Shown: positions 22,048-26,002 of the stretch, in pieces
How positions within the stretch are numbered: the stretch's first letter is position 1
Layout: every line of letters starts with the position of its first letter
Assembly (NCBI GenBank): GCA_036365515.1
Contig: CM070873.1
Coordinates: 191,262,604-191,326,603 of the forward strand
DNA: 64,000 nucleotides
From: Torymus aiolomorphi
Taxonomy: Eukaryota; Arthropoda; Insecta; Hymenoptera; Torymidae
Reading direction: 5' to 3'
Made by a program: the position numbers and the translations under genes
The notes under the pieces: model-generated
Told to the model about the DNA's origin: nothing
Databases searched by the model: none
The model's input: the letters and a program-made list of their open reading frames with translations, nothing else

Positions 22048-22087
22048 GGCCCTGAAAAGGGCCGATTAGATAGTCCTGAAAAGGACT
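22048..22087 (-). terminator. Histone-like stem-loop pair (distal copy)
   Basis: Minus strand: AGTCCTTTTCAGGACT (22072-22087) and GGCCCTTTTCAGGGCC (22048-22063), the latter followed by ACCA. Each has a 6-bp stem and a TTTC loop, as in the replication-dependent histone mRNA 3' end. Confidence 0.75.
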
Positions 22088-22305
22088 GATTAAATGGTTA
22101 TAAAAAGATGGATGCTCCAGCAGCAGCATAGCAAAAACATGAAAGAAATATCAGAATCCTATCACTTTATGTATATTTGAATTATATTTTTGTAAATTAT
22201 TTAAACTCAAATAAATGAACATTTTTTTTATTAAATTTTGAGTTCTAATTTTTTTCAATATGTGAATAATATATGAATGTTTGTTCATAAGTTAAAAATA
22301 TTGGT

Positions 22306-22345
22306 GGCCCTGAAAAGGGCCGATTAGATAGTCCTGAAAAGGACT
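22306..22345 (-). terminator. Histone-like stem-loop pair (proximal copy)
   Basis: Same two hairpins as the distal copy: 22330-22345 and 22306-22321. The first starts 2 nt after the TAA of the 163-aa gene; the second is followed by ACCA, as in metazoan histone mRNAs. Confidence 0.8.
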
Positions 22346-22347
22346 GA

Positions 22348-22839
22348 TTAAATCGTAAGACGTCGACGAATTCGCCGACGTGGCTCATCACTGTCGTCAC
22401 GAGGTCGCTTCACCGACATCTTCCGCGGTGACATCGTCCCCGAGGAGACGGTGGTGCACAAAGGTGATGAGCCTACCTCTATCACATCCTGCTTCTCCTC
22501 AGAGACTGGAGAAAAGCACGGCTCGTACTTCTCCAAAAATCCCGGGGAGAAGCAAGAAGGCACCGGTGAGAGCGAAGGCGGCGGCGACAGCGGCGGAAAC
22601 ACCTGCGGTGGGCAGTGCGGTAGTCGCTCAACGAAGAGCGGGGATGGACAGGGCAAGTGTTGTGGCGTGAACGCTGGCGATGCAAACGGCGACTTGATGG
22701 GCGATGATGTAGCCATCTGGACCATCAACTCCGAAAGAAATTCGCCGTTGCTATCCATCGCGAGGCCGATCTCCCAATCGAAATCGGTCTTACTCCACAC
22801 TGTCTCCATTGCTCGGATGTTGTCGCTCGATGAGTCCAT
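22348..22839 (-). CDS. Unrecognised 163-aa Pro/Ser-rich protein, basic tail
   Basis: Uninterrupted from ATG 22839 (MDSSSDNIRAMETVWSKTDF). Acidic N-terminal ~45 residues (TDFDWEIGLAMDSNGEFLSE), a long middle rich in Pro, Ser and Cys with repeated PSP/SPxF (SPFASPAFTPQHLPCPSPLF; FPPLSPPPSLSPVPSCFSP), and a C-terminus with SPRKMSVKRPRDDSDEPRRR-type basic clusters that look like a nuclear signal. No catalytic domain is seen. The promoter fits the element's rule: CTATAAAAG (22875-22883) and TCATT (22850-22854). It is followed at once by histone-like hairpins. A nuclear regulatory or virus-like early protein is a reasonable inference; SP/TP sites could be CDK targets. Confidence 0.7.
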   Translation of the reverse strand: MDSSSDNIRAMETVWSKTDFDWEIGLAMDSNGEFLSELMVQMATSSPIKSPFASPAFTPQHLPCPSPLFVERLPHCPPQVFPPLSPPPSLSPVPSCFSPGFLEKYEPCFSPVSEEKQDVIEVGSSPLCTTVSSGTMSPRKMSVKRPRDDSDEPRRRIRRRLTI

Positions 22840-22849
22840 CTTAGCAAGT

Positions 22850-22883
22850 AATGATTAATCGACAAACTGCGCTGCTTTTATAG
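22850..22883 (-). promoter_or_regulatory. Promoter of the 163-aa gene
   Basis: CTATAAAAG at 22875-22883 with TCATT at 22850-22854, 30 nt apart, then a leader of about 12 nt to the ATG. Confidence 0.65.
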
Positions 22884-22899
22884 CCAAAGCGCGGACCTC

Positions 22900-23340
22900 G
22901 GTGACACTCGCTACGTGGGGGGTGTAAATCGCTCGAGCAAATATTTGAATTTAAAACAAATTTCGAGAGAGAGAGACAGAGAGAGAGAGAGAGAGAGTTA
23001 TACTCTTAAAGAATTTTATTTGAAATAATTTCAAGGTCATTCGATCGAGAAGAGATTCTTTTATTTCACGAGTAAGTTAATTTTTTTAAGATAACGTTTG
23101 TAATTTTTATTTTAATTCTATAATTTTTAAAAAGTTTAAAGTATAAAAACCTCAATAAAATCTTGAAAAATTTTTTAATATTTCCATACATGAGAGAGCA
23201 TGAGTATTAAAGAAAAATATTTCAAAATAACGATGGAATCATTTTAAAAAATTTCTAAGTATAGTATTTACATATACATATAGAAAGTTTCGAGGTGTCT
23301 TTTTTTTCAAATAAATTGATTGTTGCTATATTTCATATAT
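22900..23340. other. AT-rich spacer between accessory genes
   Basis: Holds a GA-repeat (about 22963-22997) and otherwise AT-rich DNA with no supported gene. Confidence 0.6.
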
Positions 23341-23345
23341 TTTTT

Positions 23346-23412
23346 AGCTCTGAAAAGAGCTGATTACAACATATAGAAATAAATATATATATATTTAGCT
23401 CTGAAAAGAGCT
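23346..23412 (-). terminator. Two identical histone-like stem-loops
   Basis: AGCTCTTTTCAGAGCT on the minus strand at 23346-23361 and 23397-23412, each with a 6-bp stem, a TTTC loop and a preceding TAATC. They are the distal members of a four-hairpin series behind the 183-aa gene. Confidence 0.75.
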
Positions 23413-23463
23413 GATTATAGCACATAGAAATAAATAAATTGGTCCACGTAAAAATATATATAG

Positions 23464-23603: not shown

Positions 23604-23605
23604 GT

Positions 23606-24157
23606 TTATGCGGAGTTGCGCCTCTGGATCTTGCGAGGTGGCGATGATGACGGCGATCGTTCCCGAGATTTGAGAGGTCGATAGGTGACCTCGCAAACGA
23701 TCTCCACGTCAACATCTTCATCGTCTGTTACGATGATGAGCTGTGGCGTTGACGCATCATCCTCCTCCACCGGAACCTCCATCACTGAGGCGTCTGCTGT
23801 GTTCACTACTTCCATAACCGAAGGACGTCCTTCCCACTGAACGTAGTCACCCGGCAGAGCGTGATATAGGTCGTTCCCGCAGTATATCATCACGGGTTGA
23901 AGAGGTGGCGGTGGTTGGATGGGTGATGACGCTCGAGATATCTCCAATCCCATCAGCCACTCCTGGAAATCCTCGAAGGGCTGCAGCGCAGGCAGCTCGT
24001 CCACATCGAAGACTTCGCAACCCTCCAAGGCTGCGAGGCCTTCGATTACAGCTTGCTGTAGCTCGTCGTTGTCGCCGAGACGTCCTTGGATGAAGTCTGC
24101 TGCTGCTGGCTCGTCCATTGCGCGGACTAACTCTGGATGTGCGTTACTGGAGTTCAT
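23606..24157 (-). CDS. Unrecognised 183-aa acidic protein, basic tail
   Basis: Uninterrupted from ATG 24157 ([20 protein letters not shown]). The N-terminal third is acidic and helical ([32 protein letters not shown]), then come a Pro-rich [12 protein letters not shown] segment, a hydrophobic-polar region ([20 protein letters not shown]), a very acidic stretch ([20 protein letters not shown]) and a C-terminus with SPSSSPPRK followed by QRRNSA. The plan (acidic start, SP-rich, SP-RK and RR tail) matches the 163-aa protein, so the two may be diverged paralogues. I looked for an LxCxE pocket-protein motif and did not find an exact one. The promoter is TATAAC (24194-24199) and TCAGT (24165-24169). 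A histone-like hairpin follows the stop codon. Confidence 0.7.
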
Positions 24158-24164
24158 TGCTCGA

Positions 24165-24199
24165 ACTGATACCGAACGGAGAAAATCGCGCTAGTTATA
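24165..24199 (-). promoter_or_regulatory. Promoter of the 183-aa gene
   Basis: TATAAC at 24194-24199 and TCAGT at 24165-24169, about 32 nt apart, followed by a leader of roughly 10 nt. Confidence 0.6.
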
Positions 24200-24309
24200 T
24201 TACCTCCCGCGGAGCTGCTCCGCGCCAATCAGCGGTCGCGAGCGCTTCTAGCCGTGCGCAAAGGAGAGCGTGCCTGCAATCCGCGGCTTAACAGCGCTAA
24301 AGACGAAAA

Positions 24310-24769
24310 GGTCGTCTAATACCCTGCAGTGGTATCAGCGATCGCTCGCGAGTGCCGCGGGGAGGGGAAGTGCGCGCGAAGGCGAAAAAGTCATTTCACG
24401 CGCGGCAGCCGCGCGAGCAGGAGCTCCCGCGCATACGCCTAATGCCCTACCATGGTGTCAACAGCCACTCTCGAGTGCCGCGGGGAGGGGGGGGGGCGCA
24501 CGCGATGTGAAAAAGTCATTTCACGCGCGGCCGCCGCGCAAGCAGGAGCTCCCGCGCATGCGCCTAATGCCCTACCGCGATGTCAACAGCCGCTCTCGAG
24601 TACCGCAAGGGAGAGGGGCGTACGTGAAAGAGCGAAAAAGCCACTTCGCGCACGGCCGCGGTGCGAGCAGGAACTCCCGCATGGAACGTGACGGCGCGCC
24701 ACGCGACGATGAAAGAGAGCGAAAGACATTTCGCGATCGGCAGCGGTACGAGCAGGAGCTCCCGCGTGA
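24310..24769. repeat. GC-rich ~120-bp tandem repeat, four units
   Basis: Units share CCTAATGCCCTACC, CTCTCGAGTRCCGC, GCGAAAAAGTCATTTC, ACGCGCGGC and GAGCAGGAGCTCCCGCG; they start near 24310, 24440, 24562 and 24682. GGAGCTCC in each is palindromic. The array lies upstream of the 183-aa gene and next to a candidate plus-strand transcript. Enhancer or replication-related roles are guesses. Long arginine/alanine-rich frames here come from the repeats. Confidence 0.75.
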
Positions 24770-24810
24770 ACAAAGTGTTGCGGCCGTGTAGTGTGGCAGT
24801 GCAAGCAAGA

Positions 24811-24975
24811 TCTCTCTCTCTCTCTCTCTCTCTCTCTCTCTCTCTCTCTCTCTCTCTCTCTCTCTCTCTCTCTCTCTCTCTCTCTCTCTCTCTCTCTCTC
24901 TCTCTCTCTCTCTCTCTCTCTCTCTCTCTCTCTCTCTCTCTCTCTCTCTCTCTCTCTCTCTCTCTCTCTCTCTCT
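24811..24975. repeat. (TC)n microsatellite, 165 bp
   Basis: Pure TC run. A second run of about 85 bp follows at 25048-25134 and a third of about 35 bp at 25470-25505. Confidence 0.97.
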
Positions 24976-25931
24976 GATGGACCGCGACTCAACCGAGGAC
25001 GACGAAGATTAAGACAACAACAGGAAAGCCAGCGGTATGTGTGCGTCTCTCTCTCTCTCTCTCTCTCTCTCTCTCTCTCTCTCTCTCTCTCTCTCTCTCT
25101 CTCTCTCTCTCTCTCTGTCTCTCTCTCTCTCTATCTCTATCCGTCCGATACGGCAACAACAACGTAGGGACATTTAACGTAGGAACGTTGTCGTGTCCTC
25201 TCTCTCTTTATCTCTCCCTCATATACGCACACATACACCTGCATACAGCAGGGGAGAGAGTTGAGGCGGACCTCAAGGCAGTCGATGGTCTTCAACATAC
25301 ATGAACGCTAGAAACGAAAGGTAAGTTTCTTAAAAATCTATCCCACAATCTCTCTCTCAATCACGAGTGTTTCTCTCTCTCTCGCATACGCTTCTTCGGC
25401 GACGATGTCGAGTTTAGTGTCTCGCGCGCAATGCTTCCTCGAGGATGAGGTCAGGCTTTCGCTCGCGCATATCTCTCTCTCTCTCTCTCTCTCTCTCTCT
25501 CTCTCGCTCACCGACGGTGGCGGTCGCGAGGTTGGTTTCGTCTCGCTGACGATGCGGGACTAGCTCATCGACGTGTGGGAGGTTAGTTTTCCTTTTGTGG
25601 ATGACGTTGATCTCGCGCATCTCTCCCTCTCGCTCATCGACGCGTGCGAGGTTAGTTTTCGTCTCGTGGACGATGCGGGTTTCGCCCATCTCTCACATGC
25701 GCGCTTCCTCGACGACGATAAGTTTAAAGTTTCGCTCATGTCTTTCTCACTCATCGTCGTACGTGTATATAGTGTAGTATATAGATGATATTTCATACTT
25801 TTTTTATTTTCAGATATAAGAACATCAGCTTTCAGCAACGACGGGGACGTCTTGAAAACCATCTTCCTTAGTTAAGTATTTCAATGTTTCATTTATATTT
25901 AAAACTACAATATCTTCTATTTCTATTAAAC

Positions 25932-25947
25932 TGCTCTTTTCAGAGCA
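25932..25947 (+). terminator. Histone-like stem-loop, plus strand (1)
   Basis: TGCTCTTTTCAGAGCA: 6-bp stem, TTTC loop. The CTTTTCAG part also reads as a splice acceptor, so the function is ambiguous here. Confidence 0.5.
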
Positions 25948-25986
25948 AAATGGAACAAACTATTTATATATGTTTATTTTCAAAAC

Positions 25987-26002
25987 TGTTCTTTTCAGAG
26001 CA
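25987..26002 (+). terminator. Histone-like stem-loop, plus strand (2)
   Basis: TGTTCTTTTCAGAGCA: 6-bp stem with one G-U pair, TTTC loop, 55 nt after the first. The same acceptor ambiguity applies. Confidence 0.5.

Follow-up and report, generated by a model that had tools for sequence, protein, structure and literature searches.

The mRNAs of replication-dependent histone genes carry a 3' stem-loop (Rfam RF00032, Histone3) with a 6-bp stem, a UUYC loop, a G-C second pair and an A-rich 5' flank, and they end 4-5 nt past it without poly(A). In the parts of PMC7026596 that treat the histone pathway, stem-loop binding protein (SLBP) acts on this hairpin and the U7 small nuclear ribonucleoprotein on a histone downstream element (HDE), which is AU-rich in Drosophila; the available text of PMC2781718 adds that downstream poly(A) sites are used in Drosophila Slbp mutants, and that of PMC1924863 that the majority of Caenorhabditis elegans histone mRNAs have no poly(A) despite an AATAAA in their genes. 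Adintoviruses and Polintons, such as the Megastigmus wasp adintovirus, are viral elements with a double jelly-roll (DJR) capsid, a family B DNA polymerase (PolB), a packaging ATPase and terminal inverted repeats. Here we describe a 64,000-nucleotide stretch of Torymus aiolomorphi DNA (contig CM070873.1; the whole stretch is called the window below) in which an element of this kind carries ten hairpins that, judging from their sequences, are most likely histone-type 3' stem-loops under selection.

The likeness to RF00032 covers stem length, loop, second pair and 5' flank, and extends to an ACCA behind the best hairpin and to a position close behind the stop codons of apparently intronless genes. 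Unlike the known case, the genes belong to a viral element, are accessory and encode no histone; each is followed by several hairpins, the first of them only 2 nt from the stop, the first pair is not always G-C, and no canonical HDE is recognisable. The co-occurrence of a hairpin, AATAAA and, where an HDE would be expected, an unusual motif also likens the locus to the C. elegans genes as presented in the accessible portion of PMC1924863, which differ in that they encode histones. In gene content and termini the element resembles adintoviruses, but histone-type 3' ends are not described in the available portions of two accounts of such viruses: a 2024 preprint on adintovirus-related viruses (PMC11071296), which there mentions histone-like proteins and never a stem-loop, and a paper on a Drosophila DNA virus (PMC8363768), likewise with no stem-loop mention in that portion. 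The sequence-only reading of this locus that first pointed out the hairpins knew of no report of such structures for Polintons or adintoviruses. That statement needs amending, in that the accessible text of PMC12220804 counts six gathering-level Histone3 matches in Polinton-like viruses and virophages among 8300 genomes scanned, the same Rfam family in related viruses; it stands in so far as the matches are only counted in that text, without gene context, function or comment. Beyond PMC12220804 no other literature joining histone stem-loops to this virus group was found among sources available in part, most subscription journals being outside the coverage.

All ten 16-nt hairpins of the sequence-only reading were found at their positions and on their strands (Table 1), each with a 6-bp stem and with a loop of TTTC in nine and TTCC in one (23464); two stems, at 23588 and 25987, contain one G-U wobble each. 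Between 21950 and 26100, a region picked after the fact, there are 9 such hairpins with TTTC and 10 with TTYC, where shuffling gives 0.04 and 0.13 on average and at most 1 and 2 (200 shuffles), and the whole window holds 11 and 12, against means of 1.00 and 1.92 and a maximum of 5 (60 shuffles). They do not represent ten independent events: a 258-bp tandem duplication (99%) makes the pair 22048/22072 a copy of 22306/22330, and the hairpins at 23464, 23397 and 23346 belong to tandem units (1, 2 and 3) that have diverged, so that the ten hairpins amount to seven distinct sequences.

The histone grammar, namely a 4-nt loop of the UUYC type, a G-C second pair and pyrimidines at positions 3-6 of the 5' arm, is present in 10/10, as are A at -4, A at -3 and C at -1 of the 5' flank, while the first pair varies between G-C, A-T and T-A with compensation. 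Only 11 of the 791 six-pair tetraloop hairpins in the window fit this grammar, and ten of them are the set described here; the eleventh, 13462(+), lies antisense within an open reading frame (ORF, 13126-13653), is without the AA flank and looks like a chance match. The earlier claim that hairpin plus ACCA resembles the canonical histone 3' end is borne out by Rfam, where the identical copies at 22306 and 22048 reach the Histone3 (RF00032) cut-off; the other eight fall below the gathering score, five at 16.2-23.7 bits and three (22072, 22330 and 25987) unlisted up to E = 10. The compensating stem changes, which had been taken to argue for selection on structure, also hold up. Every one of the 42 cells in these seven sequences is paired, 9 of them are changed on both sides, and the covariation score is 0.667 versus 0.294 when shuffled, with 0 of 500 shuffles as high for each of percentage paired, two-sided cells and covariation score. 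Tandem units 23464 and 23397 differ by compensated changes at two pairs, and their flanks have diverged. Read from the opposite strand, each G-U wobble would become A-C, which makes the TTTC strand the likely RNA.

Table 1. Coordinates in the window of the element, its two accessory genes, the hairpins and a candidate downstream element.
Feature	Position	Strand	Remarks
Adintovirus/Polinton element	9509..26564	no strand	terminal inverted repeats ~150 nt (local alignment of ends)
Accessory gene 1, 163 aa	22348..22839	-	eight relatives, 47-78% identity; model mean pLDDT 56.5, pTM 0.10 (low confidence)
AGTCCT-TTTC-AGGACT hairpin	22330..22345	-	2 nt past accessory gene 1 stop; unlisted by Rfam up to E = 10
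GGCCCT-TTTC-AGGGCC hairpin, then ACCA	22306..22321	-	Rfam Histone3 34.3 bits, cut-off 34
ATGAACAAACATTC, possible AU-rich downstream element (tentative)	22275..22288	-	17 nt behind hairpin; MNKY/MNIY peptides apparently at like distance in P0132/P0131
Copy of 22330 hairpin	22072..22087	-	258-bp tandem duplication; unlisted by Rfam up to E = 10
Copy of 22306 hairpin	22048..22063	-	tandem duplication; Rfam 34.3 bits
Accessory gene 2, 183 aa	23606..24157	-	five relatives, 40-62% identity; model mean pLDDT 40.8 (low confidence)
GGCTTT-TTTC-AAGGCC hairpin	23588..23603	-	2 nt past accessory gene 2 stop; Rfam Histone3 23.7 bits, below cut-off
GGCCCT-TTCC-AGGGCC hairpin	23464..23479	-	Rfam 16.2 bits, below cut-off; tandem unit 1
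AGCTCT-TTTC-AGAGCT hairpin	23397..23412	-	Rfam 22.3 bits, below cut-off; tandem unit 2
AGCTCT-TTTC-AGAGCT hairpin	23346..23361	-	Rfam 23.3 bits, below cut-off; tandem unit 3
TGCTCT-TTTC-AGAGCA hairpin	25932..25947	+	Rfam 19.4 bits, below cut-off; no upstream gene recognised; could be splice acceptor
TGTTCT-TTTC-AGAGCA hairpin	25987..26002	+	unlisted by Rfam up to E = 10; no upstream gene recognised; could be splice acceptor

Placement behind genes is exact where it can be assigned. The first hairpin had been said to begin 2 nt past the stop of each accessory gene, which is precisely so for both minus-strand ORFs and true of these two genes only, because the plus-strand pair follows no recognised ORF; no third accessory gene was recognised upstream of that pair among the translated frames. 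Among the 45 ORFs of at least 100 aa in the window, the two accessory ORFs are followed by a hairpin at a distance of 2 nt, a 108-aa overlapping ORF (23395-23721) has one at 33 nt, and no remaining ORF has one within 100 nt. Behind 11 other genes checked, 900 nt each, no histone-type hairpin was found (0/11). Both accessory genes are apparently intronless, and the relatives of their products are unnamed proteins in ENA entries; the C-terminal RRRLTI of accessory protein 1 is common to five of its eight relatives, some of which differ at one residue before it. Pfam at 0.001 gave no match, to histones or otherwise, for either protein, and a search of solved structures returned none for accessory protein 1 and one unconvincing chain (E = 1.6) for accessory protein 2.

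A TATAAA lies 43 nt upstream of the accessory gene 1 start (22837-22882), and a TCAGTT 12 nt upstream of the accessory gene 2 start (24155-24171) is presumably initiator-like; from these positions the accessory leaders may be very short. Further upstream of accessory gene 2, 24222-24766 is GC-rich with 125-bp tandem repeats followed by long CT repeats, and contains TTSSCGC at three sites (24228, 24380 and 24645). Near either accessory promoter the strict E2F pattern TTTSSCGC is absent, a stretch around 24226 that combines a CCAAT-like element with GGCGC is no more than suggestive, and no LxCxE motif occurs in either accessory protein or in any of the 13 relatives. On the plus strand, 25816-26300 shows by eye exon-like pieces with repeated gaagccatcgccgctgga and TTTTCAG acceptors, directed outward to the right end of the element.

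Evidence from related elements comes from two read-through proteins, P0131 and P0132, relatives of accessory protein 1 that are frameshifted before the C-terminus, so that their reading crosses what corresponds to the window's 3' untranslated region (UTR). QSFSGL and RPFSGP occur in both, matching the window's first (22330) and second (22306) hairpin, and across the two hairpins their identity to the window reading is 14/16 and 16/16 residues. Ahead of the stop, where coding sequence is read out of frame, 27/38 and 25/38 residues are identical in the two relatives, and in the 18 residues that follow the hairpins only 2/18 and 5/18, with one P0132 residue omitted to keep register. The window has stops upstream in that frame, which is therefore not a gene there. 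On whether hairpins stand behind orthologous genes the answer is partial: hairpin peptides occur in two of the eight accessory gene 1 relatives, and the stored proteins of the other six and of all five accessory gene 2 relatives show nothing of the UTR.

Viral contigs yielded no related DNA via the capsid protein or its alignments, and none via accessory alignments, a PolB DNA pattern or a tandem-hairpin pattern. A stop-plus-hairpin pattern had one match, in a contig with transposable-phage genes by eye, and this was taken as chance. A contig of a bacterial metagenome-assembled genome (L002, titled Balneolales bacterium), with a 29% capsid relative, had no histone-type hairpin in 4122 bases, all 21 of its 21 six-pair tetraloop hairpins failing the grammar. 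Positions 240-1556 and 2174-4123 of this contig hold the distant capsid relative and, next to it, a frame that looks PolB-like by eye; the contig may come from a eukaryotic virus and have been placed in the bacterial bin.

On these sequence comparisons we consider it probable that selected histone-type 3' stem-loops stand in the 3' UTRs of the two accessory genes and lead their mRNAs into the host SLBP/histone mRNA route. Binding of the hairpins by host SLBP is their best reading and is likely; the accessory mRNAs would thereby have their 3' ends formed, and their stability and translation controlled, in the manner of histone mRNAs. That these transcripts are cut directly after the final hairpin and receive no poly(A) tail has about an even chance. 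If both SLBP binding and such an end hold, most protein would be made during S phase, the time at which the element can replicate. Several hairpins per UTR might strengthen SLBP binding through avidity or serve as spare processing sites, both of which are guesses.

A number of observations weigh against this explanation. The Rfam pass has a margin of only 0.3 bits, and 3/10 hairpins are unlisted even at E = 10. Weaker covariation measures are less decisive (four pairs with two-sided change, 9/500 shuffles as high; seven further pair types, 150/500), and the covariation shuffles ignore the common descent of the tandem copies. The relatives' peptides allow the stems without proving them, six-pair stems arising from 128/3456 and 64/4608 codon choices of the two hexapeptides, and no hairpin is visible in accessory gene 2 relatives. 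This copy of the element is decaying, as seen from a PolB split over frames and a capsid short of about a dozen residues found in relatives (consensus). The AAAGA core is absent within 45 nt behind all ten hairpins, with no canonical downstream element found, and AATAAA occurs at distances of 115 and 494 nt beyond the accessory stops, which makes poly(A) ends possible. With these two features, and with plus-strand hairpins that follow no identified gene, the non-polyadenylated end and S-phase expression are no more than inferences.

AATAAA is within 30 nt of, or overlaps, the stop in 4/11 other genes checked (10101, 14716, 16213 and 21922), and seven of the 11 are without it, five of these seven lying in the minus-strand block 10688-13771. 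Behind the hairpins there is a weak common feature: MNKY in P0132 and MNIY in P0131 match ATGAACAAA in the window, at 22, 19 and 17 nt downstream of the hairpin, and an ATGAAY-like stretch is common to the window and the relatives at 17-22 nt, where a downstream element would sit. In the tails of both P0131 and P0132 AAAGA cannot be coded and GAAAG could be; neither AATAAA nor ATTAAA is codable in the P0131 tail, while AATAAA is codable in that of P0132.

The absence of AAAGA and the presence of AATAAA would also suit a different role, in which the hairpin clusters act as decoys that draw SLBP away from the host's histone mRNAs and thereby restrict the packaging of viral DNA into chromatin, on transcripts whose 3' ends may be ordinary poly(A) ends. 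Several, repeatedly duplicated hairpins behind each of two genes fit such a sponge, but the exact 2-nt spacing past both stops suits an mRNA end better, and a few hairpins per mRNA would count for little unless the mRNA were abundant; we regard this as unlikely. Mimivirus transcripts follow a hairpin rule for 3' ends and termination, and on that model the clustering of the hairpins at gene ends could mark structural 3'-end or termination signals read by another factor, their histone resemblance being convergent. Signals read by structure alone would have no need of a second pair fixed as G-C, a pyrimidine 5' arm, a TTYC loop and an AA flank, and none occurs within 900 nt behind the 11 other genes checked, which leaves this quite unlikely.

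Tandem duplication is clear enough here, and acceptor-like TTTTCAG sites are close enough by on the plus strand, that the hairpins might instead be non-functional, borne on repeats spread by slippage, with the plus-strand pair (25932, 25987) as splice acceptors, a pyrimidine tract then CAG. Such an origin does not sit well with the compensated changes between tandem copies or with the peptide-level conservation in two relatives next to a diverged UTR, and as an account of the whole set it is distinctly improbable, although the plus-strand pair could be splice acceptors. That the true signal is on the opposite strand, where a plus-strand RNA would form hairpins with GAAA (GNRA) tetraloops, is barely credible: the complement of every TTTC hairpin has a GAAA loop and 21950-26100 holds six plus-strand GAAA hairpins, but the two wobble stems pair fully on the TTTC strand only and the stops of two minus-strand genes lie 2 nt upstream.

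The hymenopteran element that carries the stem-loops is identified as an adintovirus/Polinton by Pfam matches to a DJR capsid, a Pox_A32-type packaging ATPase and PolB (PF21738, PF04665 and PF03175) together with its terminal repeats; its ends form inverted repeat I3 (109 nt, 95%), and no identical 6-nt target duplication was found at its edges. We take 15449-16213(+) to be a candidate integrase, 12792-13166(-) a candidate adenain-like protease and a further gene a putative penton, each assigned by eye from sequence motifs; ORF 15536-16213, within the candidate integrase, has no Pfam match. A capsid protein search gave 1861 proteins, and among the best 120 of these the closest capsid has 90% identity and the organism-labelled relatives are hymenopteran without exception (e.g. 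Nasonia, Trichogramma and Megastigmus wasp adintovirus, whose hexon is 66% identical to the element's capsid). The products of 10101-10616(-) and 21183-21922(+), the latter gene with an apparent intron, share by eye the pattern LFKPPxxWxxL..KxKSENxWLE and look like paralogues. Flanking the element, direct repeats at 5510-6213 and 27873-28658, ~22.4 kb apart with pieces 89-99% alike, resemble the two long terminal repeats of a retroelement; an ORF for a reverse transcriptase/RNase H occupies 8305-9093, and a Mariner-type transposase ORF (Pfam Transposase_1) is found at 43824-44816.

Tentatively, and with somewhat less than even confidence, the locus may indicate that an animal DNA virus family equips its regulatory mRNAs with 3' ends of histone type that depend on SLBP and carry no poly(A), tying its gene expression to host S phase. 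No earlier natural case in animals of a protein-coding mRNA of this kind, other than those of histones, would then be known. If true, this would offer a direct handle on the timing of Polinton/adintovirus gene expression, and the hairpins would serve as natural variants for mapping the requirements of SLBP.

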